From: Branchiostoma lanceolatum
Taxonomy: Eukaryota; Chordata; Leptocardii; Amphioxiformes; Branchiostomatidae
Length of the DNA stretch: 64,000 nt
Assembly: GCF_035083965.1 (NCBI RefSeq)
Contig: NC_089727.1
Location: forward strand, 19,657,269 to 19,721,268
Direction: 5' to 3'
The notes below the pieces were generated by a model. The model was not told the DNA's origin, ran no database searches, and was given only the letters and a program-made list of their open reading frames with translations. A program made the translations under genes and the position numbers. Positions 15,810 through 41,900 of the stretch are shown here, one piece after another. The first letter of the stretch is position 1. Every line of letters starts with the position of its first letter.

Positions 15810-16662
15810 TGTATCCGTGTCCAGTCAGTGGGACGAACGGGGCTTGAATCTTTGTTGTTCCAAACAAAGATTGGAGATGGAATATGACATCATAAACGAT
15901 GTATAAACGTTCGAGGAACGTTAGCAAATCGTTGCGCGTCTTAAATGGCGTTCGAGAACTCATATTCATCTCTAAAATCTATCCGAATTTCTCTAAGCTT
16001 ACAGACAAAGAAAACACTATTCTTCTTTTAACTACCAAAACCCCACAAATTATAGAAAAGGTGGGACATTACGTATTCCATCGCTTACAAAAGAAAAGTC
16101 CACTTGTTATAGACAATTACGTTTATATAATCTAAGTTTAGCCGCTTTTATACCTATTTTGTACCCTGTTCTTTTATGTATGTTATTTGCAATCAGCCTT
16201 CGGGCAGGAATTTGCAATAAATTTTGTCACAGCAAAGCTCGTTCCTTCTCCCCTGTACGTTCATTGATACTGTCTTCTGATGTCGGTATACTGTACATGT
16301 ATAACGGTCTAGCGACACTTCTGTCTGTACACTATACGGGTAATGAAATCTTTAGGTCAGGTCATTTTTACGTCACAGGTTACGAGTCCACTTTCACATG
16401 TGGTTTCTCCGTTCTTGCAGCAGATTTTGTCCCAGCAAAGCCCGTTCCTTCTCCCGTGTGAGTTCACTGATGCAGGTATTTTGTGTATGTTGCTAGTCCC
16501 ATAACGTTCAATCGATTCTTGCACACTATTTGTGTAACAAAAACACAGGTCAGGTCATTGATAGGTCAGAGGTCACGAGTTCACTTTCACATGTGGTTTC
16601 TCCGTTCGTGGCGCAGATTTTGTCCCAGCAAAGCCCGTTCCTTGTCCCGTGTGAGTTCCCTG
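15810..16662. promoter_or_regulatory. Head-to-head interval of the stathmin-like gene and PRMT7
   Basis: 853 bp between the two start codons must hold both 5' ends if no upstream exons exist. It contains a LINE 3' end (15965-16225) and the repeated PRMT7 5' flank. No clear TATA box or CpG island is seen. The promoter call is inference. Confidence 0.4.
15965..16225 (+). mobile_element. LINE 3' end between the two head-to-head genes
   Basis: The reading frame LLLTTKTPQIIEKVGHYVFH matches the fragment at 61.8 kb. The tail TGCAATCAGCCTTCGGGCAG..TTGCAATAAA is shared with 62016-62051 and, inverted, about 59352-59390. It lies in the interval that should hold the divergent promoters. Confidence 0.7.
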
Positions 16663-16671
16663 ATGCAGGTG
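16221..16671. repeat. Three tandem copies of the PRMT7 5' flank
   Basis: A block with CACATGTGGTTTCTCCGTTC, then GATTTTGTCCCAGCAAAGC, then CCGTGTGAGTTC.CTGATGCAG occurs at about 16355-16476 and again at 16548-16671. A third, partial copy is at 16221-16270. The spacing is roughly 190 bp. The last copy supplies the PRMT7 start ATG; the middle copy has the same ATG context (MQVF) but a TAG soon after. Each full copy holds a palindromic CACATGTG E-box-type site. Confidence 0.8.
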
Positions 16672-16757
16672 TTCCGACAGACCCTAAACCCGACCACAGG
16701 CCGGGCGGAGTGGGCCGCTATGGACGAGGACTACGACTATAACCAGGAGGTGGCGAG
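16663..16757 (+). CDS. PRMT7: PRMT7 exon 1 (coding part)
   Basis: Codes residues 1-31 plus two bases. It contains NPTTGRAEW and DYDYNQEVA, matching the PRMT7 N-terminus. Donor is gtgagt at 16758. The reading frame stays open upstream to 16483, but the ATG at 16663 aligns with the family start. Any 5' UTR exon is not resolved. Confidence 0.93.
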
Positions 16758-19700
16758 GTGAGTATGCATGGGGGAGGGGGGCGTGAACTACAGGCTGTTG
16801 CGTTGGGCAAGGGTAACTTGCTAGCTCTAAGCTCTACACCTATCTAAGTTGTATTCATGACTGCCCTTTGATGTAGCACACTAGCTTCGCAGTTTGTGCT
16901 GGTGCCTACATGTAGTTCTATAGATAGATAGAAGGAGTCTTCACGCTAAGCTAAAATTTGAATTAGGTCGTAACTATTTACTGTACGTGATGCAAATTCC
17001 TAGTACACGTATATAACTATTAGGTCACAGCAAGTAATTTTGATGGATGACATCAGCGCGCTCATTAATTTTCGCCTGATTTCGAAAAAAAACACAAAAA
17101 AACTGGAAATTTCATTGTCCTCGGACGGTGGTGAACATGCCAAAAATTGGCAAATATGTCGTAAACTTTGACAGTCTAAGGTGTTTCATTGCAAATGAAT
17201 ACCCAGTGTAGTTCCTGCCCATGATGGTATAATAACAAGCTGTTTTCTGCATTTGTCCTAGCAAGGACATTATATAAATAATGGGGGGGGGGGGGGTCTA
17301 GGTAATTGAACTGTATACACAAGGTGTTTCATTGCATATGAATACCCCGTGTAGTTGCTTCAGATGATGGTACAACAAGCTCTTTTCTGCATTTGTTGTA
17401 GTTATAGTCTATTGAGATGTATACACATCTACAAGGACATGTTTACTGTTGAATCAAGGTTTTATATTATATATATATGAAACCTTATTGGTGGAATACA
17501 GGAATAAAAGACATATTTCGTCACCTCAATTGTTGTTTAAAAGGATTTATGATCTCAAAATTTGAAAATATAGGAATCTTGTTTTTTTTGGCCCGCCTTG
17601 TTTTTTTCCCGCCCTATCTCATTAATTTTGGAGTCTGCGGAGGATGTCTTCCATAAGATTTACTTGCTACATGGCCTTATATTGTCATCCAAGGTAATGA
17701 ATACAATGTAGTCTACTTAGTAGATAAATAACCATGATCATGAAGAGGTCCTCAATTTATTTTTCCGTTATCTTTCTCCTTACCTTTGCCCTTCATGTAG
17801 GTCTTCTTACACAGACATGCTGCATGATGAGGAGAGGGTGAGTCTGAAATACACTGCTTCAAATGTCTTGCATAATCAGAGTACCGCTCAAGTGGAAATA
17901 AAGCAAGTATTTTGTTTGTTTGTTTGTTTGTTTGCTTTGCATGTACAGTAGACTGACTTTAGTCATAACACACCAGTTCTGTATAGTAGCTACAAGCTGC
18001 ATAAAGCCCCAGTTACACATAGCTGAACATGGCTCACCCGAACGCTAGCCGACCAAGTTCGTCGGTATAGGTCGGGAGCAGTCTGACCAGTTTTTAGGCC
18101 ATGCCTGTCTTTGGCGCCAAACATGCGCCTCTCATCTCCTAACCAGTACACGAATTACTCCTGAATGCTTTCTAGCGCCAACAATCCCGACCTCTATAGC
18201 CGCAGACTGATCTTACCTGACTACTAGTAATTCCCGACTGATTGCAGACCCTCTCACCAATTGAAATTGACATATTCAGCAAGTTTCAAAAGAGGGGTCA
18301 TTTTCATTTTTGATTAAGATAATCCATCCTTCTATGTTGTTAACAGCATCGAGAGATCGAATTCGGATCATGACTACATTTGATACGGCTTTAGTGTTCT
18401 CCTTTGTTTTTGGTCGTCTGAAGGTCAGTCCACGTTCAGATAGTACTCACTTGGTTGAGAATTAGTTAACAGAGATTTGTCTACGGCCTTGGGGTGAGTC
18501 ATGGGTAGGTTGGGAACTACATGTAGTTGGGAGTAAGTCAACAGTGTTTCTGTCGTGGTTTAAGTTCTAATTTTACTGCGGACTCACTCTCGAATACCAG
18601 CCGAACACTAGCCGACCGCGCCAAACACCAGGCAAACACCAGCGGACTCATTCCAGAGCCGAATGTTTTGAAAACAGCAGCCGAACGCCAGCCGATTCAG
18701 CCGAACGCCAGCTGACCTAGCTCCCAAATCACTCCCGAATCACTCTAACCATGGTCGGGGGAGAGTCGGGAGGCCATGTTCGGCTATGTGTAACCTGGAC
18801 TTAAAACCGGGCTGTAAAGTTTCATCTTCTTACACCGGGAAGGACCCCTACTTATTTAGACAAGTGTGGTGGTAGCCGTGGCGACTGTTGGAGGGCATCT
18901 TCTCCTTACGATCGTAAGAAAAAGAAACCCTCCAACTGTCGCTGTGGCTAGTGTGGTGTGTTCTTTGACATGCTAAAGGTGTGGTTCTCCTAAAACACAG
19001 GGCCTCTTATCTTGCTTTATGTCCCATTCAAGAGGATATTCCCAGCCAATACACATTATTATCCATTCTTATACATTTATGTATAGGTTTATTCATTTGT
19101 ATCCACTTGACTGTTTATATGTATAGATGTAGTAGACCTTACAAAAGCCGTCCGCTGTACTTTGATCTGTAGTGTCCATAAAGATTGCTATGTGTAAGTA
19201 CTAGTACTAGTAGTTAGGACACTGAAATTCCTATATTTTGCATCGAGAGAATTTAATCCAACTGTACGTGTTTTTCTTCCACACAGAATAAGAAGTACAA
19301 GGCAGGTTTGGAGCTGGCGATTGGGTGTGTCCGTGGGCGTGGCCAGCATGTGCACGTGCTGGACATCGGGACGGGCAGCGGACTCCTGTCCATGCTGGCC
19401 GCACAGGCAGGGGCAGACAGGGTCACCGCTTGTGAGGTTAGATCACAGGTTACAAAGTACTGCCTGGAATCCATTAATTTTTATTTTTAGAATAAAAAAA
19501 GCTATTTTATTCTTAAAGTCTAAATAGAATAAGATTAAGTTCTTTTTTAGCCTACTAGAAGCTACCTAATAGTATCTAGTATCTATCCAGTAGTTACAAT
19601 TAGAGCTGGCCTCTAATCCAGTCTATTCTTTAACCTATCTATGCTGTAGTTCTTGTTTCTTTAACTGTAAATTTATGGTTCACTGTTTTCACAGTCACCT

Positions 19701-22700
19701 CTGGACTGTGAACTTGTCATCACCTTGAAAAACCTACGTATGACACATGTCATAATTCCTTTGCACATTTAGGGGTTCATCTAAATCAGCAAAGAGGGGT
19801 GCTGTGCCCTCTTGTTTCAGCCCAGCGCTCCCTTGTCAAATTCAGATTTTAGCGTAATATCCAGCATACAGCCTTCACTCAGCGATTGATTCATCCATAA
19901 ATACATAGAATTCACTCCCTCGCCTGTGTGTATTCCCTCTTGTTCAATTTTTCTAGAAAAACCCCTGGTACTACCAGAGCTAGCTAGCTAGGAAATCATA
20001 ACAATTTGCCTCCCAACTTTGAGATTACAGTGAAATTAGTGTATGTTATTTAATACCGTAAAATCCCTATTTACATACGCACTTTTTAAACTTTTCAAGT
20101 CACAAGCAGGTGCTCCAGGCTGACGCCAAAGTCGGGGTGCGTACGTTACGAGGGGTTCTTCCTCGTAAAAATCGCATATCAGCTTGAGAGTATGGTACAT
20201 CTTCATGCAAATGAAGTGTGGAATGCTACCACACAATCAATCAGTAATAAATAATAAATAATACATATATTTAAATTGTTTGACATTTTCTACCCAGAAA
20301 CATTTTCTCAGTAACGCTGTAAGTTGGTAAACATCATCAGAAGAATGATCATGTCAACCTCGAACTATCCACCAAAATGCTGGAGAGGGGGTGCGTACGT
20401 TAGGAGGGTTTTTCCCCTGAACGTTTCAACTCACTGAGTCAGGCCCACAATCGTCCCCAAATCGGGGGTGCGTACATTAGGAGGGGTGCGTACGTAAATA
20501 GGAATTTTACGGTACAGCATGCTTCCAACTGTAAAACAACAACTCATGCCTCATGTATGCTGTGTATATGTACTTAAATAAGTTAAATGATTCATTTCAG
20601 TTTACATAATACTTTCGTATTGCATTATAATGGTATAACTACAATGTATTTTCACATGGAAGTCAACAGCTGAATTCCATGTAAGTCCAGACACAAGTCT
20701 TAAATGCATACTATACACATCTTATTAGATATATTGGATTATAGAAAACAAGGGCCTGGGTTCTTTCTTGAAATTGATTAAATGTGATTTTCCATTCCCA
20801 CCCTCAGTGTTTTAAGCCCATGGCAGGAGCAGCACGAAAGATCATCAAGAAAAACGGCTTTGCTGACAAAATCACGGTCATCCCTAAACGCTCAACTGAC
20901 ATGACAGCTGGGCCAGGTATGTTTAAATGGACCGATTCAATTCGAACACCATAAACCCCGCCCCCTGTTCTATTTCGAATAGTCCGTCAAAAAACGGTCG
21001 CGTGCGCTTGGCTGTTGAATTTGCCGACTATCTTCTCTTGAGCTTTTTTGGCTCTGAAACCCTTTCAGAGCGGACCAAATTAAAATGGTATGCCTTCTTT
21101 GTGGACTGATGTATCCACCGAGTAGGGTTCAACTTGTTTGAGGAGGGGGTAAATGTAGTTACGGTGAGGGCGTAATGTTTTCGGTCAATGCGGAAGCGGG
21201 TTGCGTCGCATAGCATTACCTTGTTGGTGACCATCAGTGCCTGATTTTTGACAAGCAGCCGATGCACGTGTAAAACAGGGTACGTATATCTGTGACAGGG
21301 TTCCCACTGTGTTGATTGCCGAATTGCAACTTAACACGTGCCATTTCTGTCCAACTAGCGCTGTTCTTGACGGAGGTATTCCAAATAGAATAGGGGGTTC
21401 TATATGTTCGATATGGTGTTTCACTGGATTAGTCCATTACGAAGTAATGGTTAATGACCCGCCTATCCCTCGGTCGGTAATACATGTATTGTATATGGTG
21501 CCATAATGCCTGGTCATTTGCTGTCACCACCAAATTACGCCGTCATAACTGACATGCAATGGGGACTTCTGATTGGTCAACGTCATCAGGTTATATAATT
21601 ATAAACATTATAAGAGGTTTAGCTTCTGTTCTCTTTTAACCCAGAGATGCTCACTGTCACAGTGTTAAATATAATAACTGCTTTTCAGTAAAGCCTTAGA
21701 CATAGCTGTTTACAGCAATACATGTGCAAGTAAACATTGTCAAGCAAAAATAAATAAATAGTTCAGTTTGAATAATCTGAAACCATATACATGATGTTAT
21801 CCTTAGTCACCCCTGCTTCTCCTAATGGTTCAGTGAAGTCAATACTTGTCTCGAGCATTGATATTTCTGACCTAGGGTGAAGAGATGCTGCTACAGTAAC
21901 AATTGAGCCGACTTTCTTCGTAAATCGATGGCAACATCAGGCTCTTACGAATTGATTTAAAAAAATATATATATATATATTTCTCTAAAAAGGGATACTG
22001 ACTTAAAGCACAGTCATATGCAAAGTCCTCCCTAGAACTTTTCTGATAAATCTGATACCATGCCCTTTTCTTTCCATTTGCAGGAGGTGACATGGAGGAA
22101 AGAGCGAACATTTTAGTGGCAGAACTTCTGGACACAGAGCTGATAGGAGAGGGGTGTCTGTACACGTACCAACATGCACTCAAGCATCTTGTCACTGTAA
22201 GTCTAGCTTTGATGCAACAGTGCAGGGTTTAAAATGTACTTAAAATGAAAAAAAAAACAATAGGTCAGGGCTCTCTTCAGCTTCCGTCTTTCCATTCCAG
22301 GACAAAATTTTGCTGCTGATCATGAGGACAACCATTCTGTCCCCCTAGATGAACAAAATTAGGATCTTAACAGCATTTTATTAAGCCATCAACAGTGCAA
22401 CAAAAATGTCTTTTCAAATTTAGAATAAACAGTATTACAATCATGATGATAGGAGTATGTGATTGACTTGCAATGATAATCTGACAGTCATGTGATGATC
22501 ATGTGATGATCATGTGACAGTCATGCAATGATCATGTGACAGTCACATGATGACCACCTGGCCATTTGAAATTTGACCCTCAAAATGCTTGAATTAGCAT
22601 TCAGGAGGTTTAGATTTGAAACATGCCTCCATGGACCCCCTAGACCAAACTGTAAGGACAGTATACACTGGAAAGAGCCCCGGACATCACCATGTTCAGC

Positions 22701-23901
22701 ACACCTGGCCAAGGTGATCATCATGTGACTGTCACATGATCATTGCATGACTGTCACATGATCATCACATGACTGTTACAATCATTACATTTCTATCACA
22801 TGCTCATAAGATAATCATTGTTAAACTGTCACTTGATAAAAATTTCAAGCCATGAATGTCGCATTATATTGAAGCTTTATTACTATTAATGTAAAATATA
22901 TACAAACTATCAATGTCATTTTCATCTTTTTCTCCATCCTGTTGTGCCCCCCTCCCCCACAGCCAGACTGCATATTTGTGCCCCACGCTGCCACAGTCTA
23001 TGCCCAAGTGGTAGAGTCCGACTTCATGTGGAACTGGCACAGGCTACGGGACCTACCACTGACAGGTAGGGGGAGGAAAAGAAAAGTTCAAAGCATTTAC
23101 CTGTCTTAGGTTGTCATATGACTGTGGTGTCATCCAGTGTCCATCTTTATTTCTATATCCCTTTGGCCACACTTCTATTTTGGGCCAAAGCTACACATGA
23201 ATATCACTATTTGATGGTATATCCCAAATTTATTGATACATAATTCACTATACACAAGGCTATCATCTTATATACCAGGGTTTATTTCAATGGACTTAAA
23301 TAGCAAACTTAAGACAAACAAACAAAGGCACAAATAACAAACAAGTACATATTGACATGTGACATGTTGGAAAATATATTAAAGAATGTCTAGACGATAG
23401 AAACTAGTACTCCTATCATTCTAACCCCATACTATACACTCTTGTAATTTAGTTAGACTAGCCCTTAGATATAGAACTGTAGGTATGTACCAGCCATACA
23501 ATGTACTTTGTACCTTGTACAGTTGTTGCACAATAAAGTTATCTGTAAAAGAGCTGAGTCCTCAGCAGAGAATTCAAAGCAATATTGCATTATTTGGTTT
23601 AACTTTGCCAGGGAAACTAAAAAATTAAATGTAAGTTAGAGCTTTTTGTGTGTTCTGTCCATAAAAGCTTGTGAGGTCTAACAATTGTTCCCTCTTTTTT
23701 TCAGGTTGCGAGAAGGCTTTGGTCCCCTCATTAGACATGGAGGCCTGCACGGGGGCTGCAGCAGTCCATGATATACAGCTGAGTCAAGTCAAGCAGGGGC
23801 AGTTCAAACCCCTTACAGAGCCCATCAAAGTTTTCAGGTGCACAATTTTTTCAAATGATTGACACCAACAAGAGGGAACACCTAACACAATTATATATTA
23901 G

Positions 23902-23950
<49 letters not shown>

Positions 23951-26900
23951 AGTTTTATGTCTTTTGTTCCCCATCATCTGGGGGTTAGACGTGCTTACAC
24001 ATGGATGGGGGAGCCCCAGAACTCCTCATCAAGTGCAAGTCTTTTTTGGAGCAAGAGGGCATACGGCTGTATGCCCTTCCTAACGCCAACCCAAACCCTA
24101 TTGCTGGGCTTAGGACATGGGAAATGTGTGTTAAGTGCCTTTCCCAAGGGCACAATGTCTGGGTGCATGTCCGGACATGTCTGGGTATCCCACTGGGGAT
24201 TGAACCTGGGTCTTATTGGTTCATAGCCGGATGCTCTGCCACTATGCCACACTGACGCCACTTTTTTATATAACTTAAAGTACAATGAACAGTTCGCAGT
24301 CACGTTCTATATATTAAGGACTGCCACCTTTTACAGTAGCATCCATGTTGCATGAGCAGCAAAAGCCGGGATTTGTGCTCCCAACCTCTTGGTCCTGTGG
24401 TGGGGTCGCTAACCACCACACTACAAAAGTTAGGGCTGTGTTGTGAAAAAGAACAAAGTTATCAGTTTCGAATTGATTTGTATTTTTTTTTTTAGTACTA
24501 AGTTTCTTATCACAGCATATTTTTTTTTCTTAATCAGGTTTGAGTTTGACAAGAAGACAGAATCTCTGGAGCGCCAAGTCGATCTGAGTGTGACGGTGAC
24601 AGAAACCGGGCAGGCAGAGGTGGTTCTGATGTGGTGGGACATAGAGATGGTCCCAGACAGCTCAGTTCTACTGTCTGTAGCTCCGTCATGGGCACATCCT
24701 ACTCCTCATAACATGCAGGTATGTAGGGCTGTACATGTAATGTTAGTTTAGCTGGTCGTACAGACTGGCACAGGTGGTTCTGATGTGGTGGGACATAGAG
24801 ATGGACCCTGACAGCTCAGTTCTACTGTCTGTAGCTCCGTCATGGGCACATCCTACTCCTCACAACATGCAGGTATGCAGGGCTGTACATGTAATGTTAG
24901 TTTAACTGGTCATACAGACTGGCACAGGTGGTGGTGGTGATGTGGTGGGACATAGAGATGGACCCAGACAACTCAGTTCTACTGTCTGTAGCTCCGTCAT
25001 GGGCACATCCTACACCTCACAACATGCAGGTATGTAGGGCTGTACATGTAATGTTAGTTTTACTGGTCATACAGACTAGCACAGGTGGTTCTGATGTGGT
25101 GGGACATAGAGATGGATCCAGACAGCTCAGTTCTACTGTCTGTAGCTCCGTCATGGGCACATCCTACTCCTCACAACATGCAGGTATGCAGGGCTGTACA
25201 TGTAATGTTAGTTTAACTGGTCATACAGACTGGCACAGGTGGTGGTGGTGATGTGGTGGGACATAGAGATGGACCCAGACAACTCAGTTCTACTGTCTGT
25301 AGCTCCGTCATGGGCACATCCTACACCTCACAACATGCAGGTATGTAGGGCTGTACATGTAATGTTAGTTTTACTGGTCATACAGACTAGCACAGGTGGT
25401 TCTGATGTGGTGGGACATAGAGATGGATCCAGACAGCTCAGTTCTACTGTCTGTAGCTCCGTCATGGGCACATCCTACTCCTCACAACATGCAGGTATGC
25501 AGGGCTGTACATAGTTAAACTGGTCATACAGACTGGCACAGGTGGTTCTGATGTGGTGGGACATAGAGATGGTCCCAGACAGCTCAGTTCTACTGTCTGT
25601 AGCTCCGTCATGGGCACATCCTACTCCTCACGACATGCAGGTATGTAGGGCTGTCATGTAATGTTAGTTTAACTGGTCATACAGACTGGCACAGGGCATC
25701 ATGTGGTGGGACATAGAGATGGACCCAGACAGTTCAGTTCTACTGTCTGTAGCTCCGTCATGGACACATCCTATTCCTCACAACATGCAGGTATGTAGGG
25801 CTGTACATGTAATGTTAGTTTAACTGGTCATACAGACAGGCACAGGTTGTTCTGATGTGGTGGGACATAGAGATGGACCCAGATAGTTCAGTTCTACTGT
25901 CTGTAGCTCCGTCATGGGCACATCCTACTCCTCACAACATGCAGGTATGTAGGGCTGTACATGTAATGTTAGCTTAACTGGTCATACAGACTGGCACAGG
26001 TGGTTCTGATGTGGTGGGACATAGAGATGGATCCAGACAGCTCAGTTCTACTGTCTGTAGCTCCGTCATGGGCACATCCTACTCCTCTCAACATGCAGGT
26101 ATGTAGGGCTGCACATGTAATGTTAGTTTAACTGGTCATACAGACTGGCACAGGTGGTTCTGATGTGGTGGGAGTCACCGTGGGACATAGAGATGGACTC
26201 AGACAGCTCAGTTCTACTGTCTGTAGCTCCGTCATGGGCACATCCTACTCCTCATAACATGCAGGTATGTAGGGCTGTACATGTAATGTTAGTTTAACTG
26301 GTCATACAGACTGACACAGGTTGTTCTGATGTGGTGGGACATAGAGATGAACCCAGACAGCTCAGTTCTACTGTCTGTAGCTCCGCCATGGGCACATCCT
26401 ACTCCTCATAACATGCAGGTATGTAGGGCTGTACATGTAATGTTAGTTTAACTGGTCATACAGACTGACACAGGTTGTTCTGATGTGGTGGGACATAGAG
26501 ATGAACCCAGACAGCTCAGTTCTACTGTCTGTAGCTCCGCCATGGGCACATCCTACTCCTCACAACATGCAGGTATGTAGGGCTGTACATGTAATGTTAA
26601 ACTGGTCATACAGACTGGCACAGGTGGTTCTGATGTGGTGGGACATAGAGATGGATCCAGACAGCTCAGTTCAACTGTCTGTAGCTCCGCCATGGGCACA
26701 TCCTACTCCTCACAACATGCAGGTATGTAGGGCTGTACATGTAATGTTTAACTGGTCATACAGACTGGCACAGGTTGTTCTGATGTGGTGGGACATAGAG
26801 ATGGACCCTGACAGCTCAGTTCTACTGTCTGTAGCTCCGTCATGGGCACATCCTACTCCTCACAACATTCATGTTACACAGAAGTCAAACCATCATGGAA

Positions 26901-29900
26901 AGTGCAGTGTCTCAGTTACATGACTTGTAATTCCTGGGAAGTAAAAAATGACTGTAGTTAGTGTATCTCCTGCAATTCCTCTCCAGGTCAACAGGTGGCG
27001 CTGCATGGCAGACATGGTGCAGCTGTACATTGTGCATAATTATCAACAAGTACAATAGGGGGCAGGGTCATCTTCTCTGTATCTGTATCTGTATAGCCGG
27101 TATAACCGCCCTTCAGCGTAACACACCAGCTTCGCAGGCACGCGGCGCGACAGCAGCTGGTTATATTACACTGAACGGCCTGTCACACCTAACCTTTGCA
27201 CATCTGGCTGCAATCGTTCTTTGAAGCTATTTAGTGAAGGTGTTCCTACAGTATCTGATGACAACGAGTTCCATTCTACTATGATTCTTGGAAAATATGA
27301 ATTTTTGAACACATCAATCCTTCTCTGCATAGTTTTAAAGAACACTATAGGTTTGTCTTGCAGCTAGATGTGACAGGTCGTTCAGTCCAATGTAACCAGC
27401 TGCTGCCACACTGCATGCCTGCAAAGATGCTGTGTAATGCAGAAGGGCAGTTATACCGGCTATGTAGAATATAGAATGCAATTTAACACCCGGCCCTTGA
27501 GCCTTAACCCCGAAATAAACCACTGAATGAGTTTACCAAATGCATTCATGACCTGCTTTTCCCTTTTGTGTTTACGGTGACATAGTGCCTAGTGTGACAT
27601 CGATATAACCTCCAAATAAACCACCATGTGAACAAAGTGATTGATGTGCCTTATAACTTGTGAGATTCGTTAACATTTTTTAAATTTTTTGTTACCCAGT
27701 GGCGGGACCATTGGATGCAGGCCGTGTATTTTAACCCCCAGTCCATCCCTGTGGAGAAAGGTACGTACTACGTACAATTGTTTGCTCTAACATCATCTAC
27801 ATTGTACATTCTTGCCTGAAATCTGTCGTCAAGATTAAATGAAAATATTTTCAGTTTGGAAAAAAAAATTGTCAGGGAAAACATGTTTTAATAGCTTGTG
27901 GAACTCATAAAATCATGTAAGAATCTATCTTTAGATGGATTGCCTCTAGTGTTTTATTGTTGTATTCAGTGTAACTGTAATACTCAGTGGTCCGCAACAT
28001 CAGCTTGTCTGCCTTGTGCTTCACTATGTATTGTCTTGTTGCGATTTTTGATAAAGAATAAAGAAGTTAGAATCTAGCACTTCCAACATGTGTGTTTCCT
28101 TTCGAATTTACTCTCTAAATGGAAGTGACTATAGTTGAATATGCTGCTCTCATTGAATGATATTCTTTGTGATTGGTGAATTTATTTTACACAGAAGTCA
28201 AAACATCATGTGTGTCTCAGTTAATTCCTGGGAAGTAAAAAATGACTGTAGTTGTTGTATCTCCTGCTGTTCCCACTTAGGTCAACAGGTGGCGCTGCAT
28301 GGCAGACATGATGAGTACAGCCTGTGGTTCCAGGTGCAGCAGCAGGGGTCAACGAACTCTACAGGGTAGACATCTTTTTTTTTTTTTTTTTTTCACAAAA
28401 AGTCTAGAAATCCTTAGATCTGGAAGCTGTTATATGTGAAAAAACAAAATGAATGGAATGAAAGAAGTTTGATAATTTTTTCGGTCCATCCAAACCTCAT
28501 CCACAAAAAACGTAAACAATCCCAGACACAACCACAATCATTTATTAAAGAATAAGCAACAACATATTGATATTTTTGGCAAAGGTAAAAATCTTAATGT
28601 AAATCTTTTTGCAGTGGTTTTATCTTTAAGATAAGCTTTCCATTGCAAATAACACATTTCAAATATATTAAACAATAATTATTGTTTCAGCCACAAACTT
28701 AGAACACTGAAATAGATGAATATGCAGTATTTCATGACCATTGTTTTTATGGTGACCCCAGGTCAGAGGTCAGCTTGGAGAGACCTGTGTGTCGCTGTGG
28801 GGGTCACATGGTGTGGAGCCGGCCGCGGCTGGGCATGATAAACGACACAGCCAGGTGGCACACGTATGCAGCTGCTCTGAAACAGGTGCTGGCACCTGGG
28901 CAGACGTGTGTGAGCGTGAGCGATGCATCGTGGTTACCGCTCATAGCAGCACGGCTAGGAGCACATGAGGTGGGTTTGATTTAGTTGTCTGTTTCACTAT
29001 AACACCCCAATCAAACTCCTTTCGAGCCGTACCCGGCAATCGGTCTGTACCCACTCAAAATTTGGGCCGTACCCTAAAATTTGAGTCGTCCCTGCAAAAA
29101 TTTGAGCCGTACCCGGTAAATTGGGCCATAACCGGTAAATTAGGCCATACCTGGTAAATTGGGCCTTACCCTGTACATTTGTTCTTTTAGACCGTACCCA
29201 ATAACGGACATCGCTTGGCCACAGTGTGTGTAGTCACGTGAAAGTGGCGTCGATCTAGACACCCTGTACCACATAGGCTATGTGGGATTATACATCATTG
29301 CCGTACAGGGTGTCTAGACGTGACTTTTATGTGACTACAGGCACTGTGGTCGAGCGATGTCCGCCATTGGGTATGGTCAAAAAGTACAGGAATGGTCCGA
29401 TTTACCGGGTACGGCCCAAATTTTTATCGGGTACGACCGGAATTCAAGACTACGGACCAATATTCGAGCGGTAACTTTCCAAGTACAGCCGGAGGGAGTT
29501 TGATGGAATGTATCAGACAGTTCATAGTTCCAGGTGAAAATGTGTTCAAATGTGCAATGTCAAAGGTTAAGGCTCCTAAATGGTCAACTGTGCTCTGCCT
29601 AAACTTGTGTTGCTTATAACATTTCAGCACTAAGGACAGGACCATGTACTGTAATAGGGGTGGTAGGGTAGGATCACATTTCAGCACTAAGGACAGGACC
29701 ATGTACTGTAATAGGAGTGGTAGGGTAGGATCACATTTCAGCACCAAGGACAGGACCATGTACTGTAATAGGAATGGTAGGGTAGGATCACAGTTCAGCA
29801 CTTAGGACAGGACCGTGTTCTGTAATAGGAGTGGTAGGGTAGGATCACATTTCAGCACTAAGGACATGACCATGTACTGTAATAGGAGTGGTAGGGTAGG

Positions 29901-32900
29901 ATCACATTTCATCACTAAGGTCAGGACCATGTACTGTAATAGGAATGGTAGGGTAGGATCACATTTCAGCACTAAGGACAGGACCATGTACTGTAATAGG
30001 GGTGGTAGGGTAGGATCACATTTCAGCAGTAAGGACAGGACCATGTACTGTAAAAGGAGTGGTAGGGTAGGATCACATTTCAGCACTAAGGACAGGACCA
30101 TGTACTGTAATAGGAGTGGTAGGGTAGGATCACATTTCAGCACTAAGGACAGGACCATGTTCTGTAATAGGAGTGGTAGGGTAGGATCACATTTCAGCAC
30201 TAAGGACAGGACCATGTACTGTAATAGGAGTGGTAGGGTAGGATTACATTTCAGCACTAAGGACAGGACCATGTACTGTAATAGGAGTGGTAGGGTAGGA
30301 TCACATTTCAGCACTAAGGACAGGACCATGTGCTGTAATAGGAGTGGTAGGGTAGGATCACATTTCAGCACTAAGGACAGGACCATGTACTGTAATAGGA
30401 GTGGTAGGGTAGGATCACATTTCAGCACTAAGGACAGGACCATGTACTGTAATAGGAGTGGTAGGGTAGGATCACATTTCAGCACTAAGGACAGGACCAT
30501 GTACTGTAATAGGAGTGGTAGGGTAGGATCACATTTCAGCACTAAGGACAGGACCATGTACTGTAATAGGAGTGGTAGGGTAGGATCACATTTCAGCACT
30601 AAGGACAGGACCATGTACTGTAATAGGAGTGGTAGGGTAGGATCACATTTAAGCACTAAGGACAGGACCATGTACTGTAATAGGAGTGGTAGGGTAGGAT
30701 CACATTTCAGCGCTGAGGACAGGACCATGTACTGTAATAGGAGTGGTAGGGTAGGATCACATTTCAGCACTAATGACAGGACCATGTACTGTGATATGAG
30801 TGGTAGGGTAGGATCCCATTTCAGCACTAAGGACAGGACCATGTACTATAATAGGAGTGGTAGGGTAGGATCACATTTCAGCATTAAGGACAGGACCATG
30901 TACTTTCATATGTGTGGTAGGGTAGGATTACATTTCAGCACTAAGGACAGGACCGTGTACTGTAATAGGAATGGTAGGGTAGGATCACATTTCAGCACTA
31001 AGGACAGGACCATGTACTGTAATAGGAGTGGTCAGGTAGGATCCCATTTCAGCACTAAGGACAGGACCATATTCTGTAATAGGAATGTTAGGATTGGATC
31101 ACATTTCAGCACTAAGGACAGGACCATGTACTGTAATAGGAGTGGTAGGGTAGGATCACATTACAGCACTAAGGACAGGACCATGTACTGTAATAGGAGT
31201 AGTAGGGTTGGATCACATTTCAGCACTAAGGACAGGACCATGTACTGTAATAGGAGTGGTAGGGTAGGATCACATTTCAGCACTAAGGACAGACCATGTA
31301 CTGTAATAGGAATGGTAGGGCAGGATCACATTTCAGCACTAAGGACAGGACCATGTACTGTAATAGGAGTGGTAGGGTAGGATCACATTTTAGCACTAAG
31401 GACAGGACCATGAACTGTAATAGGAGTAGTAGGGTTGCATCACATTTCAGCACTAAGGACAGACCATGTACTGTAATAGGAGTGGTCGGGTAGGATCACA
31501 TTTCAGCACTAAGGACAGGACCATGTACTGTAATAGGAGTGGTAGGGTAGGATCCCATTTCAGCACTTAGGACAGGACCATGTACTGTAGCAGGAGTTGT
31601 AGGTAGGATCCCATTTCAGCACTAAGGACAGGACCATGTTCTGTAATAGGAGTGGTAGGGTAGGATCACATTTCAGCACTAAGGACAGGACCATGTACTG
31701 TAATAGGAGTGGTAGGGTAGGATCACATTTCAGCTCTAAGGACAGGACCATGTACTATAATAGGAGTGGTAGGGTAGGATCCCATTTCAGCACTTAGGAC
31801 AGGACCATGTACTGTAGCAGGAGTTGTAGGTAGGATCCCATTTCAGCACTAAGGACAGGACCATGTTCTGTAATAGGAGTGGTAGGGTAGGATCACATTT
31901 CAGCACTAAGGACAGGACCATGTACTGTAATAGGAGTGGTAGGGTAGGATCACATTTCAGCACTAAGGACAGGACCATGTTCTGTAATAGGAGTGTTAGG
32001 GTAGGATCACATTTCAGCACTAAGGACAGGACCATGTACTGTAATAGGAGTGGTAGGGTAGGATCACATTTCAGTACTAAGGACAGGACCATGTACTGTA
32101 ATAGGAGAAGTCGGGTAGGATCACAATTCAGCACTAAGGACAGGACCATGTACTGTAATAGGAGTGGTAGGGTAGGATCCCATTTCAGCACTTAGGACAG
32201 GACCATGTACTGTAGCAGGAGTTGTAGGTAGGATCCCATTTCAGCACTAAGGACAGGACCATGTACTGTGATAGGAGTGGTAGGGTAGGATCACATTTCA
32301 GCATTAAGGACAGGACCATGTACTGTAGCAGGGGTGATAGGATAGGATCACATTCCAGCACTTAGGACAGGACCATGTACTGTAATAGGAGTGGTAGGGT
32401 AGGATCCTATTTCAGCACTAAGGACAGGACCATGTACTGTAGCAGGGGTGGTAGGATAGGATCACATTCCAGCACTAAGGACAGGACCATGTACTGTAAT
32501 AGGAGTGGTCGGGTAGGATCACATTTCAGCACTAAGGACAGGACCATGTACTGTAATAGAAGTGGTAGGGTAGGATCACATTTCAGCACTAAGGACAGAC
32601 CATGTACTGTAATAGGAATGGTAGGGCAGGATCACATTTCAGCACTAAGGACAGGACCATGTACTGTAATAGGAGTGGTAGGGTAGGATCACATTTTAGC
32701 ACTAAGGACAGGACCATGAACTGTATTAGGAGTAGTAGGGTTGCATCACATTTCAGCACTAAGGACAGACCATGTACTGTAATAGGAGTGGTAGGGTAGG
32801 ATCACATTCCAGCACTAAGGACAGGACCATGTACTATAATAGGAGTGGTAGGGTAGGATCACATTTCAGCACTAAGGACATTACCATGTACTGTAATAGG

Positions 32901-35900
32901 AGTGGTAGGGTAGGATCACATTTCAGCACTAAGGACAGGACCATGTACTGTAATAGGAGTGGTAGGGTAGGATCACATTTCAGCACTAATGACAGGACCA
33001 TGTACTGTAATAGGAGTTGTAGGTAGGATCCCATTTCAGCACTAAGGACAGGACCATGTTCTGTAATAGGAGTGGTAGGGTAGGATCACATTTCAGCACT
33101 AAGGACAGGACCATGTACTGTAATAGGAGTGGTAGGGTAGGATCACATTTCAGCACTAAGGACAGGACCATGTTCTGTAATAGGAGTGGTAGGGTAGGAT
33201 CACATTTCAGCACTAAGGACAGGACCATGTACTGTAATAGGAGTGGTCAGGTAGGATCACATTTCAGCACTAAGGACAGGACCATGTACTGTAATAGGAG
33301 TGGTAGGGTAGGATCACATTTCAGTACTAAGGACAGGACCATGTACTGTAATAGGAGTGGTAGGGTAGGATCACATTTCAGCACTAAGGACAGGACCATG
33401 TGCTGTAATAGGAGTGGTAGGGTAGGATCCCATTTCAGCACTTAGGACAGGACCATGTACTGTAGCAGGAGTTGTAGGTAGGATCCCATTTCAGCACTAA
33501 GGACAGGACCATGTACTGTGATAGGAGTGGTAGGGTAGGATCACATTTCAGCATTAAGGACAGGACCATGTACTGTAGCAGGGGTGATAGGATAGGATCA
33601 CATTCCAGCACTAAGGACAGGACCATGTACTGTAATAGGAGTGGTAGGGTAGGATCCCATTTCAGCACTAAGGACAGGACCATGTACTGTAGCAGGGGTG
33701 GTAGGATAGGATCACATTCCAGCACTAAGGACAGGACCATGTACTGTAATAGGAGTGGTCGGGTAGGATCACATTTCAGCACTAAGGACAGGACCATGTA
33801 CTGTAATAGAAGTGGTAGGGTAGGATCCCATTTCAGCACTTAGGACAGGACCATGTACTGTAGCAGGAGTTGTAGGTAGGATCCCATTTCAGCACAAAGG
33901 ACAGGACCATGTTCTGTAATAGGAGTGGTAGGGTAGGATCACATTTCAGCACTAAGGACAGGACCATGTACTGTAATAGGAGTGGTCAGGTAGGATCCCA
34001 TTTCAGCACTAAGGACAGGACCATGTACTGTAGCAGGGGTGGTAGGATAGGATCACATTCCAGCACTAAGGACAGGACCATGTACTGTAATAGGAGTGGT
34101 CGGGTAGGATCACATTTCAGCACTAAGGACAGGACCATGTACTGTAATAGGAGTGGTAGGGTAGGATCCCATTTCAGCACTTAGGACAGGACCATGTACT
34201 GTAGCAGGAGTTGTAGGTAGGATCCTATTTCAGCACTAAGGACAGGACCATGTTCTGTAATAGGAGTGGTAGGGTAGGATCACATTTCAGCACTAAGGAC
34301 AGGACCATGTACTGTAATAGGAGTGGTAGGGTAGGATCACATTTCAGCACTAAGGACAGGACCATGTACTGTAATAGGAGTGGTCAGGTAGGATCCCATT
34401 TCAGCACTAAGGACAGGACCATGTACTGTAATAGGGGTGGTAGGGTAGTATCACATTTCAGCACTAAGGACAGGACCATGTACTGTAAAATGAGTGGTCG
34501 GGTAGGATCACATTTTAGCACTTAGGACAGGACCATGTACTGTAATAGAAATTGTAGGGTAGGATCACATTTCAGCACTAAGGACAGAACCATGTACTGT
34601 AATAGGAGTAGTAGGGTTGGATCACATTTCAGCACTAAGGACAGACCATGTACTGTAATAGGAGTGGTAGAGTAGGATCACATTTCAGCACTAAGGACAG
34701 GACCATGTACTGTAATAGGAGTGGTAGGGTAGGATCACATTTCAGCACTAAGGACAGGACCATGTACTGTAGCAGGGGTGGTAGGGTAGGATCACATTTC
34801 AGCACTAAGGACAGGACCATATTCTGTAATAGGACTGTTAGGATTGGATCACATTTCAGCACTAAGGACAGGACCATGTACTGTAATAGGAGTGGTAGGG
34901 TAGGATCACATTTCAGCACTAAGGACAGGACCATGTACTGTAATAGGAGTAGTAGGGTTGGATCACATTTCAGCTCTAAGGACAGGACCATGTACTGTAA
35001 TAGGAGTGGTAGGGTAGGATCACATTTCAGCACTAAGGACAGGACCATGTACTGTAATAGGAGTGGTAGGGTAGGATCACATTTCAGCACTAAGGACAGG
35101 ACCATGTACTGTAATAGGAGTGGTAGGGCAGGATCACATTTCAGCACTAAGGACAGGACCATGTACTGTAATAGGAGTGGTATGGTAGGATCACATTTTA
35201 GCACTAAGGACAGGACCATGAACTGTAATAGGAGTAGTAGGGTTGGATCACATTTCAGCACTAAGGACAGACCATGTACTGTAATAGGAGTGGTAGGGTA
35301 GGATCACATTCCAGCACTAAGGACAGGACCATGAACTGTAATAGGAGTAGTAGGGTTGGATCACATTTCAGCACTAAGGACAGACCATGTACTGTAATAG
35401 GAGTGGTAGGGTAGGATCACATTCCAGCACTAAGGACAGGACCATGTACTATAATAGGAGTGGTAGGGTAGGATCACATTTCAGCACTAAGGACAGGACC
35501 ATGTACTGTAATAGGAGTTGTAGGAAGGATCCCATTTTAGCACTAAGGACAGGACCATGTACTGTAATAGGAGTGGTAGGGTAGGATCACATTTCAGCAC
35601 TAAGGACAGGACCATGTACTGTAATAGGAGTGGTAGGGTAGGATCACATTTCAGCACTAAGGACAGGACCATGTACTGTAATAGGAGTGGTAGGGTAGGA
35701 TCACATTTCAGCACTAATGACAGGACCATGTACTGTAATAGGAGTGGTAGGGTAGGATCACATTTTAGCACTAAGGACAGGACCATGTACTGTTAAGGGA
35801 GTGGTAGGGTAGGATAACATTTCAGCAATAAGGACAGGACCATGTACTGTAGCAGGAGTGGTAGGGTAGGATCATATTTCAGTACTAAGGACAGGACCAT

Positions 35901-38900
35901 GTACTGTAATAGGAGTGGTCGGGTAGGATCACATTTCAGCACTAAGGACAGGACCATGTACTATAATTGGAGTGGTAGGGTAGGATCACATTTCAGCACT
36001 AAGGACAGGACCATGTGCTGTAATATGAGTGGAAGGGTAGGATTACAATTTAGCACTAAGGACAGGACCATGTACTGTAATAGGGGTGGTAGGGTGGGAT
36101 CACATTCCAGCACTTACGACAGGACCATGTACTGTAGCAGGGGTGGTAGGGTAGGATCACATTTCAGCGCTAAGGACAGGACCATGTACAGTGATAGGAG
36201 TGGTAGGGTAGGATCACATTTCAGCACTAAGGACAGGACCATGTACTGTAATAGGAGTGGTAGGTAGGATCACATTTCAGCGCTAAGGACAGGACCATGT
36301 ACTGTAATAGGAGTGGTAGGGTAGGATCACATTTCAGCACTAAGGACAGGACCATGTACTATAATAGGAGTGGTAGGGTAGGATCACATTTCAGCACTAA
36401 GGACAGGATCATGTACTGTTATAGGTCTGGAATGGTAAGTTAGGGTAGGGTAGGAGGTATCATTAGGAGCTCAGGATTCTTTATCACAGTGACTATGAAA
36501 ATCAATCCAATAGGAGCTCAGGATTCTTTATCACTATGAAAATCAGTCCAATAGGAGCTCAAGATTCTTTATCACTGAAAATTAGCCCAATAGGAACTCA
36601 TGATCCTTAATCACTATGAAAATCAGCCCAATAGGAGCTCAGGATTCTTATAAAATCACTATAAAAATCAGTCCAATAGGAGCTCAGGATTCTTTATCAC
36701 CATGAAAACCAGTCCAGTAGGAGCTCAGGGTTCTTTAGCACTATGAAGACCAGTCCAGTAGGAGCTCAGGGTTCTTTATCACTGTAAGAATCAGCCCAAT
36801 AGGAGCTCAGGATTCTTTATCACTGTGAAAAAAAATCAGTCCAATAGGAGCTCAGGGTTCTTTGTCACCATAGAAACAAGCCAACACAGCCTCCAACATC
36901 ATGATGACTGACAGTTGAGCTTTTATGGGCTTGGGAACTGGATTTAGTTATTATGCCAGCCTGCAATTATTATTGAAAATTTAGCAAGTACTGAAAATCC
37001 ATCTTGAGTCTCACGCAAATAGCTTATCCTGGTGGATGGTAACAATGACATAAAAGACCTCCGCTCTAGAGGTGTGGCCAAAAATATTACTGTTAACAAT
37101 TTTTTCATGTACCTGTAAGATTCTCAAGAGACTTGCCTATTATAAAGTACTAATTGAATGGTAAAAGACGGAACTTTTTTCTTGCAGGTTTTTGCATTAG
37201 AGAGTTCGGACCTTGGCTCAAGAGTTACACACAAGGTAAGAAGTGTACTTTTGTGTTTTGTTTGTTTGTTTGTTTTGAAATCTTTGTCATGGGTGTATGA
37301 AGAATGTAAATACATACATTTTGTAATTCAGGATATAACACCCAATATCATATTCTATCAGGACTTTTAATTAGATATGTAATGTATACCATATAGATAT
37401 GTGCATAAAAGTTTATGTTTAAATGCTTTGTCATGGTTGTATGATGAAGAAAAACATACATACATTTTGTAATTCAGGATATAACGTTAACACACAATAC
37501 CTTATTCTATCAGGACTTTTAATTAGATATATAATCTATACCATATAGGTATGTGCATAAAAGTTCACGATGTCACTCGTTCTCTTCAAGTGCTTTTTGG
37601 CGACGCCTTAGGGGCGAGCCAAATTTTTACTATATTGTGTGCAGATTGTAAGAATTCTAGGAATTGTACAGGAATGTGAAAGTCCATGGGACGATAACTC
37701 AAGAATGCTTGGATGTATTGTCTTCATATTTTGTAGGTGGGTAGGTCTGTGGGAGACTTTGTAATGATTGGATTTTGGGCCCCCTAGCGACTTTCTAGGT
37801 ACTGCAGGGGAAGTTTCACTTTTTAAATCTCGTCTTCTGAACATGCTATAGTCATGATTTTTAAGTGGTGGATATCTCTTTGTTAGGAAAATATGTCCTG
37901 TAGATTTGGACCCCCTAGCGGCTTTTTTTGGAACTGCAGGAGCTGATTTTGACTCAAACTTTGAAAGAAAATAACGCAAGAAGGGGATGACGGATCATCA
38001 TAATTTTTGGTGTGTAGATAGCTTAAGTGATGATTTACATAATCATTTGCCAATTATGCAAATCCTTATCTGATTTGCATAATTAATGAGGACAGTTAAT
38101 GAATCAGCTGAATTCTATTATAGGACCCTCAAACACATGACATATGTAGCTGAGAAAGAGACAAATATCAATAGATATGGATTATGCAAACTGATACTTG
38201 ATTTGCATAATTAATGACAAAATACTATAAATCCATAGTGCTAAATGATGGGGATTTCATTTTTGCACCATTTGGAAGTTAAGTAAATGTGGCCACTATT
38301 AGACACAAATCTTGCATAGAGGGCCACATTTACATAATTTATTAGGAAATGGTACGATATCTTTTTTTGTGAAAACAAGATTTTCATACATTGGACAACT
38401 TGTGTTATTTTGGTATAGAAGGTGATCGACTGATATGATTTATGCGAGGTCCTTATTTGCATGTGGGCTAAAAACGAAAACGTTAACAGAGACCACCGTT
38501 GCCATGACATCTTTTTACGTTCCAACAGTTTTTATTGCATGTTATGTCTCCTCTCTATTTTTGGCCAGTTGATAGAAGCAAACAATCTCCAGGACAAAGT
38601 TCACGTGGTTCAGGGTTCAGAGGAAGACTTAGAAGCTGCACTTATAGACAAAAAGGTGAGTATCACACTAAATAACATAATTCATACCTGGGCAGGTATA
38701 ACGTTCCATACGGGTGTTCCGGACCGGGCAATAACTTTGGTTTTGTAATCACACATGGTTCTACTTTTACATGTATCACACGGGCTTCCATAGAATATTT
38801 GTGTTTGCACCACTGTCAAAAATTTGAATACCGGATTTGGACGTTGGAATCAATGTTGTTACTGACAATTTTTTTTTTGAGGACACAAAGCTCTCTCAAC

Positions 38901-41900
38901 TGCCGAATGCGAAATGTGCTAGTTGTGTGGGTTTTTTTGAGTGGGTATGACACAAAAGATAATATACAATACGGTGTATTCCGCATCGCCCTCTGGCCTT
39001 AGGCACATACGGTACAACCCGGGGTCAGACCAGTACCTCGGGCTTTACAGATTACACCGTGTTGTATAATCTATATGTCTAGGGCACGGCATTGGAAGGC
39101 GGAGCCCTCCCTCCCCTTCCACTGCCTTTTAGTTACTAACCGAAGTTAGGCACCCATTTTTACACCTGGGTGGAGTGAGGAAAGTCAGACTCTGTAAAGT
39201 GCCTTGTCCCAGGACACAACGTCTAGCAAGGAAGACCGGGAATTAAACCCGTAACTTTTCAATCTCCTATTACCCAACCTAACCATTTGGTCATTCAATG
39301 CCACTGTGTTGAACCACACTTAAGGCCCTGAGATATGTATGCAGGGTTAAAGTGTGGTTTAACAATGTAGAAAAATGAGTTATATCTTTGTTCGTTATCA
39401 TATTTTGGTCAACAACTTATCCGACTGGAGAAAACCATATTAAACACACTCAGTCTGTCAATGCAAAGAAGTGCCGGTTTGAGCTTATCATGAATAAACA
39501 AAGGATCAAACAAACAAACAAGTAGGATCAAAATTTAGAATTGAACATTACCTTTAATCAAGGCTGTCTCCAGCTTTAAAAATTTTTCCGTCCCATTCAT
39601 TGTTTGGGACCCATGTTTTTGATTTTCAACGTTGAATCTGTTATTCTAAGCTTTCAAAATACATTTTCATTGGTTTTAGGTCATGAAATTTATATTTTTT
39701 CGACGGACAGGGTTGAATTTTTTTCCGTCTTAACAAGCAAATTTCCATCCTGGGACGGAAGGACAGGTCATGGGGACACCCCTGCCTTTAATTCTGTACA
39801 CTCAGGCTCAAGGCTTCTTGTGTTTTTACCATGTAGATTTTAATATCAGGGATACCTGAAAAACAGGCTTGTTGCCTGAGTGTATATTTCCCTGTATGAA
39901 TAAATATCAAATGAATGAATGAAATGACTTGGACATTTTTCTAGCACCATATGTTTTTAAATGAAAAGTACCAGCCAATCCCATCAAAAAGAAAATTCTT
40001 TGGCACGTGACTCAGAGTGCGACAATCGCAAACATACAAAATGTATATTAAAGTAGCGCTTCTGAATTATGTATGAAGGTAGACATTATACGTTGGGCTA
40101 CGTCCATGTAAGACCCAAATTGTACAATTTTGCAGTGACAGACAAATCGGCAAGATGGTGCAAAACACGGTACTGCTTTACTCGTTACTCTTGGTGTCTT
40201 GTCATCTGCTGCTTGCGTCGGCAACAGTGCTCCGTGCATCTAAAGCTCTTCGATGCCCGGATAGCTGTAGTTCTAGAACGATAAGAGGGGAAACGCAAGT
40301 CGTCTGCCGCTGTCCAGATGAAAACTGGGAGGGGTCCGCCTGCAGCTGGGTTGGTTACGGAGGAACGTACAGCTTCCCCGTGTGTCTTGACGCAATACCG
40401 ACCGACTTCGACAAAGCCACGGTATCCATCTTCATCAAGCATCTCCGGTCTTCTACGATTCGGGAGCGGGCTTTCCCCAACAGCGCGGAAGTGACGGACA
40501 TTCGCATCCACGAGTCAAACGTATCCATTGTGCAGCCGGGGGCTTTCCGAGGTCTCCCATTGGTGCAAACCCTCAGCCTCGCTGACAACCGCATCTCAAG
40601 CCTTGGTATGTTCAAATTATCATTATTTTGTTTTATTACTTTATTTGTATATGTTTACTGAGTATTAGGCAGGAAGCGATTGCTTATTTGAAGCCTTTTA
40701 CTCAACACATAGAGTAAACAAAGAGACATAATGACATGCATAAATACAAAATGGATAAAAGGAAAATAACAATAGACAGTACAAGTTGGTATCTATCATT
40801 AAATGAATCTGCCTGTACAATGGATGTAAGTATGAACTATATCGAGTATGTTACAGTTTTGTAAGTATGAGAGTGACGTGGAACCGCGTAACAGAAGAGA
40901 ACATAATGAACTGTCGTTAAGTAGTTGAAGGTCAGTTACGTTGGAAAGGGATATTAACATAGTACTTCTTTGCGTGGTATAAAGTTTACAATGTAAGAGA
41001 TAATGTTCGATTGTTTCACTAAAATGACCACATTTATATGTAGGACAATCTATACAATGGTGTAGAAATAGGTGGTGGTTTAACTGACTGAAATTTAAAC
41101 GAAGTCTTGTAAGATGAACTACTGAATGTCTTTGGCCGTGAGAGAAGTGAGGGTATTTAGTCGGTCTGTTAAAATGTGAGTCCAGTTCCTTTTTATAAGT
41201 GTTGATCGTAAGCGATGTTTGGACATTAGAGGGCAGTTCATTCCACAAGTGAATCGTTGAGGGTAAGAAAGATTTTCTTTTCAGTTATCATTATTGATAT
41301 CAGGACACACTTTAGAATAGTACTGGTATTGCATGACAGCAATACATAGTAAAATCATTCTTGTTTTGGAAAGAAAGTAGGTCACAAAGCCCAGGTCCCA
41401 ATGATCTTGGTCTGACCAAATGTGCAGGGACGGACAAATTAATTACCAATTATTAATTGCATAATTATAATGTAGTGATGAAATACTGTGGTTCAGAATT
41501 TTCTCATCAAGGCAGTTGACTAAAATTGTAAAAAAAAGGAGGGGTAAGTACTACGGTATACTGTATACATGCAGAAATTTTTGCGGGGATTTGATTTTGA
41601 GGGAGGGAGAAAATGGAGTGTTTGCGGTGGTTTTGAATTCGCGCTTGAAACAATAGTAGCACTACAGTCACACGATTTAACGGCTTTTTGCGCGGTTTGA
41701 AGTTTGCCGTTAAGTGTTTCCGCGGAAACCGCAAACTTAAAATCACCGCGAACATTACTTCATGCATCATTCTTTATTACAGTTCATTTTTATGCACAAA
41801 GTTCAAAATATCTTTCTTTTCCTTTCATATTTTGTTGAATTCATCCACAGCCACTGGTTTTCAGCAATCCGATATTGCCTGCCCACTGCATTCATTTGGT

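Follow-up and report, generated by a model that had tools for sequence, protein, structure and literature searches.

Several amphioxus genes are described as carrying minisatellites whose units span an exon-intron boundary. Such arrays were named mirages earlier, in the Adh3 gene of B. floridae and B. lanceolatum (PMC3087553), and the original Adh paper, as cited by PMC3087553 and PMC3902484, is Canestro et al. (2002). The mirage units of the globin gene BflGb6 are given as 150–160 bp long, with six units in one haplotype and three in another (PMC3087553). Many mirage units carry AG/GT signals, according to the same report; the arrays are reported to be harmless to regular splicing, and it has been suggested that new introns arise from them (PMC3087553). 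PGBD5 is reported to contain 60- and 108-bp repeats across splice sites, with troponin C mentioned as a further gene, and at the B. floridae PGBD5 locus the copy number differs between two versions (PMC3902484). Here we describe an array in lancelet PRMT7; as judged by titles and the opening lines of abstracts, we found no PRMT7 mirage in the literature.

The window, a 64,000-nucleotide stretch of B. lanceolatum DNA, contains a 16-exon PRMT7 gene whose reconstruction encodes 716 amino acids followed by a stop codon. Exon boundaries were placed by hand using the splice consensus, with a lancelet PRMT7 protein as guide. Each of the 15 introns of the reconstruction begins with GT and ends with AG, and joining the exons yields a single open frame of 716 residues. 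The initial annotation had assigned the locus to PRMT7, and this assignment was borne out: one exon after another, translated stretches match the PRMT7 structure 4c4a, and lancelet PRMT7 proteins support the same identity. The host gene is from a cephalochordate, given that two public B. lanceolatum proteins, P0003 and P0198, match the window. In the numbering used here the source of the array is exon 8, and the exon at 27700 is exon 9. Intron 8, which bears the array, is 2981 nt long. The coordinates of the features are collected in Table 1.

Table 1. Features of the PRMT7 locus, numbered from the first nucleotide of the window; c1 to c15 are successive copies of the array.
Feature	Position	Strand	Basis or remark
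PRMT7 coding span, 16 exons	16591..57011	+	Reconstruction
Duplication of exon 1 start and 5' flank	16240..16673	+	
PRMT7 exon 8, residues 271–331; its final 99 nt are array copy 1	24538..24718	+	
154-nt tandem array; unit of about 99 nt from the exon 8 3' end and 47–55 nt from the intron 8 start	24613..26868	+	Tandem Repeats Finder, segmentation
c1, authentic exon 8 end	24620–24718	+	Segmentation
c2–c14 including spacers; all 13 are complete and bordered by AG and GT	24774..26722	+	Segmentation
c15, truncated; lacks the final 4 exon bases and the donor	26774..26868	+	Segmentation
Psi-exon 10, displaced copy of intron 9 end and exon 10 start	26867..27019	+	
Palindromic element in intron 8; 104-nt inverted arms, 82% complementary	27088..27468	.	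MITE-like by shape only
PRMT7 exon 9, expected splice partner for exon 8	27700..27760	+	
PRMT7 exon 10, authentic	28281..28365	+	

Tandem Repeats Finder reported the array with a period of 154 nt, 14.7 copies, 92% matches and a score of 3846, and repetition with that score is far beyond chance. The unit crosses the exon-intron boundary, with 99 nt from exon 8 followed by 55 nt from intron 8. Segmentation divided the array into the authentic end of exon 8 (c1) and 14 extra copies, of which all but c15 are complete, and agreed almost to the base with the initial annotation, which had counted 14 extra copies, 13 with splice-like borders. The exon-like lengths that it had listed for c2–c14 were exact (99, 102, 99, 102, 99, 99, 96, 99, 99, 111, 99, 99 and 99 nt), and its phase 0 to 0 geometry was correct; all of the lengths are divisible by three, and all 13 complete copies read openly in frame. 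Each of these copies lies between CACAG and GTATG(T/C), and both the AG and the GT signal are kept in 13 of the 14 extra copies. The spacers between copies are 55 nt long in 10 of 14 cases and 47, 54, 51 and 51 nt in the others, with indels of 8, 1 and 4 nt, again as had been noted.

Part of the array has been duplicated as a block at an offset of 311 nt, and 392 nt are identical between the two versions (24810–25201 versus 25121–25512). Because of this block duplication the two 102-nt copies represent one event, and the indels of the array amount to few independent events. The pattern of homogenisation is mixed: there is no difference between the c3 and c5 units, and the first spacer (s1) has two private changes, yet the most divergent unit, c8, is an interior one, and an effect of distance was sought among the copies and none was found (Mantel rho 0.02, P 0.40).

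The copies could in principle be real cassette exons, of which one or several are included, each adding approximately 33 residues to the barrel, or which replace copy 1 through a cryptic AG|GTGG donor. We consider this very unlikely, even though the 13 complete copies all combine phase 0-0 and freedom from stops with AG and GTATG borders. The donors also speak for cassettes: those of the complete copies score 7.7–9.0, the real exon 8 donor scores 9.0, and the cryptic AG|GTGG donor at 24620, within exon 8, reaches 5.7. The acceptors argue against them. Acceptor strength was assessed with a matrix built from the 15 introns of PRMT7 alone, which is a small set and gives a consensus score only. 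On this scale the true PRMT7 acceptors (n = 15) score 4.3 to 11.0 when each is left out of the matrix in turn, and their pyrimidine fractions are 0.65–0.94. The AG|GTGG acceptors of c2–c15 score −3.5 to −0.7, below all 15 real acceptors and at the 46th–70th percentile of the 4098 AG dinucleotides in the window (median −3.1), so by consensus scoring the copies are not each preceded by the good acceptor that would be expected in an array of cassettes. Their pyrimidine fractions of 0.35–0.41 confirm the lack of a polypyrimidine tract that had been remarked on from the start.

A better acceptor lies beside each of these sites. CATACAG|AC, 10 nt upstream of AG|GTGG, scores −0.2 to 4.9 (72nd–95th percentile) and outscores AG|GTGG in 14 of 14 copies, and splicing to it would insert 109 nt, shift the frame and introduce a stop. 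The CATACAG acceptors of c4 and c6 (both 4.9) overlap the weakest real acceptors (4.3 and 4.8), and some cryptic, frame-breaking use at c4 or c6 is conceivable. The spacers, previously described as very short, measure 47–55 nt, versus 396 nt for the smallest true PRMT7 intron; skipping of copies would lengthen the introns. The proposal that any copy could be included, swapped or skipped is therefore poorly supported, with AG|GTGG acceptors at background level and a stronger frame-breaking site just upstream.

The initial annotation had also seen coding constraint in the copies. After tests of variability, substitution, indels and border survival, this claim was set aside as unproven. Of the 99 positions in the exon-like part 21 are polymorphic, as are 10 of the 55 spacer positions (Fisher P 0.83), with pi at 0.050 and 0.040, respectively; the exon-like part is as variable as the spacers, whereas cassettes would be expected to be the more conserved. 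Changes per site are 0.175 for non-synonymous positions, 0.182 for spacers and 0.40 for synonymous positions, under an assumed 75:25 split of sites. With the synonymous rate as the neutral yardstick these figures would suggest mild constraint; with the spacers as the yardstick they would suggest none.

There are 23 distinct changes among the copies, 13 non-synonymous and 10 synonymous. The dN/dS comparison that had been proposed gave an omega-like ratio of 0.38–0.48 under simple models, but its significance is borderline and depends on the model. The synonymous excess has P values of 0.022, 0.040, 0.055 and 0.067 at transition weights from 1 to 4, and 0.071 in a permutation that keeps the mutation spectrum; without two complex blocks, which leaves 17 changes, P rises to 0.26. 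The contrast drawn earlier between indels in the two parts of the unit is present in direction, with multiples of three in 3/3 independent events in the exon-like part (+3, −3, +12) and 0/3 in the spacers (8, 1, 4), but the events, counted by eye, are few (one-sided P 0.05, two-sided P 0.10). If both 51-nt spacers arose separately, the spacers stand at 0/4 and P is 0.029. The indel contrast and the weak synonymous excess are points for cassette exons, and are hints at most, no proof. By chance, the copies would read without a stop with a probability of 0.27–0.39, and four AG/GT border sites would go unhit with a probability of 0.41. Splicing would not be needed for such hints: variants could be filtered while a sequence serves as copy 1, the real exon, and later be passed to inner copies; c1 has GTC in common with c7, and CAT in common with c11 and c12.

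One residue in the authentic exon deserves separate mention. Codon 309 (24650–24652) of exon 8 encodes V. With P0003 set aside, all 119 aligned homologues have D at this position, as do 299 of the 301 PRMT7 proteins that have the motif in a fetched set of 315 proteins (14 lack the motif). V is found in P0003 from B. lanceolatum and in P0121 from the fish Erpetoichthys calabaricus. Among the extra copies, 11 of 14 have D, c7 has V, and c12 and c13 have N. The WWDIEMVP reading that the initial annotation had singled out in copy 1 is thus real, and c7 has it as well. The odd residue in copy 1, set beside the D of most other copies, favours cassette use, but the same D-to-V change in Erpetoichthys PRMT7 suggests that D309V need not be damaging. 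D309V is the strongest motive for a search for conversion or splicing that links array and exon, but does not itself show either. There is only a slim chance that the array is a living exon reservoir, from which copies with D reach the PRMT7 barrel by splicing or conversion, with the result that individuals with different array content make different PRMT7 proteins. Immediately before the copies, the residues are A-Q in most units and A-E in copy 1, and the Q is also present in most homologues (105/119 aligned, P0003 set aside). On the simplest view, the spacer end would be a remnant of the exon itself.

Public records mostly lack the copies. P0003, a B. lanceolatum model of 386 amino acids, continues from exon 8 into two VVVV-type copies treated as exons; only c3 and c5 are of this type. 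It then enters c8 at CATACAG|AC and runs in a shifted frame to a stop (25685–25798), without exons 9–16. A second B. lanceolatum model, P0198, begins just upstream of exon 12. The first exons peculiar to P0003 and P0198 were found in the window, at 18370–18423 and 37158, respectively. The B. lanceolatum models that we found therefore split PRMT7 in two and lose exons 9–11, probably because the repeats led gene prediction astray. P0003 is the one record in favour of cassette use, although only as a gene model, and one that stops in a frameshifted copy.

In both full-length lancelet PRMT7 records (P0001 and P0002, from lancelet hybrids) exon 8 is joined directly to exon 9. No residues are inserted at the exon 8/9 junction in any of the 119 aligned homologues (P0003 set aside), and among the 315 fetched proteins a repeated exon 8 motif occurs in P0003 only. 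A 1150-aa query representing a longer, array-bearing protein gave 866 matches out of 7986 scored candidates, and the best 120 of these included no Branchiostoma protein beyond P0001 and P0002. P0003 also bears on the possibility that the array was produced by an error of assembly or sequencing. In favour of such an artefact, the repeat number at PGBD5 in B. floridae is reported to differ between two versions of the locus (PMC3902484), but private variants distinguish the copies, and P0003 contains identical c3/c5 and c8 translations, although possibly from the same assembly. We regard an artefact as exceedingly unlikely.

The sequence around the array contains further duplications. Directly behind c15 sits psi-exon 10, which aligns with its source over 26867–27019 against 28180–28313 (78% with gaps). 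Its acceptor (26986/26987) is of normal strength: it scores 10.3 with the full matrix, compared with 10.8 for exon 9 and 10.4 for exon 10. A matrix built without exon 10 gives it 7.9, compared with leave-one-out scores of 6.4 for exon 9 and 5.4 for exon 10. Splicing of exon 8 to psi-exon 10 is predicted to lead to a stop after 23 codons, and AATAAA or ATTAAA motifs are present at 27514 and 27615. These features would suit a splicing decoy, in which exon 8 or the array donors are joined to 26987 and the premature stop lowers or regulates PRMT7 output; we think such a role very improbable.

At the other end of the gene, the start of exon 1 and its flank are duplicated (16240–16480 versus 16443–16673, 79% over 243 nt). 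The copy lies upstream of the real exon 1, and a stretch of 28 residues is still readable in it. In a scan of exon edges, direct duplications crossed the edge of 3 of the 16 PRMT7 exons; a fourth overlap, at the end of exon 16, was excluded as too short (30 nt, inverted). Other introns contain repeats and coding sequence of their own. In intron 11 (29619–36425), a 57-bp unit is repeated approximately 120 times; each strand has long open frames there, a likely consequence of a unit length divisible by three. Intron 13 holds leucine-rich-repeat coding exons on the same strand as PRMT7 (40083–46907); a long open frame at 44109–46907 carries in-frame tandem repeats (123-, 45- and 126-bp units) rich in PYAV/PYAT tyrosine motifs.

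The array is very probably a mirage minisatellite that straddles the exon 8/intron 8 boundary of lancelet PRMT7 and is most likely spliced out with the intron. A young minisatellite had been the initial annotation's own counter-reading, and it proved the better of its two. The composition of the unit, the block duplication, the weak acceptor consensus and the lack of extra conservation in the exon-like part were all demonstrated. An initial duplication would have fused intron 8 sequence with exon 8 at a point upstream of the GCA-CAG/GAG-GTG codons. The AG before each copy would then derive from an exon codon rather than having evolved as an acceptor. The array may have grown by unequal exchange or slippage, including the recent 311-nt block duplication, and each complete copy would have inherited a strong donor and a poor acceptor. 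By exon definition, the spliceosome would therefore most likely join copy 1, as the end of exon 8, to exon 9, and the array would be removed with the intron. It is most likely, judging from the sequence, that splicing disregards the copies. Variants, including D309V, may also move between the array and the real exon when copy 1 exchanges sequence with inner copies. Points against the mirage reading are the use of copies as exons in P0003, the strong donors, the CATACAG acceptors of c4 and c6, the synonymous excess and the indel contrast, and a further one is that the Mantel comparison showed no spatial homogenisation.

As a mirage, the PRMT7 array would be a large and well-resolved addition to those of lancelets. 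It suggests why mirages can sit harmlessly in genes, in that a strong donor is copied and the acceptor is poor. The split public models show how mirage arrays can derail gene annotation. If the copies were ever spliced, the locus would allow intron gain and the birth of exons to be tested directly.

Among known systems, tandem exon duplications and clusters of mutually exclusive exons (for example PMC9013439 and PMC6071210) resemble the PRMT7 array in having adjacent, in-phase and similar units with splice-like borders. Unlike mutually exclusive exon clusters, the PRMT7 array has background acceptors, spacers of only 47–55 nt and no extra conservation of the exon-like part, and its copy 1 is fused to the unique half of an exon. 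The Rogers model, named in PMC3087553, derives intron gain from duplication of an AG|GT proto-splice site; the AG|GTGG of exon 8 qualifies as one and is followed by a duplicated donor, but PRMT7 shows no sign of a new intron in use. The closest likeness in anatomy is to the amphioxus mirages. In the published accounts, those of Adh3, BflGb6, BflGb9 and PGBD5 share with the PRMT7 array a lancelet host gene, tandem units over an exon/intron boundary and AG/GT signals in many copies. Their units are given as 10–160 bp, compared with 154 nt in PRMT7, and 15 copies in PRMT7 compare with six and three in BflGb6 and up to seven in PGBD5 (PMC3087553, PMC3902484). The PRMT7 array differs from the published mirages in its host gene and in the displaced boundary copy that adjoins it. 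In its anatomy it fits as a new gene for the mirage minisatellites already described.
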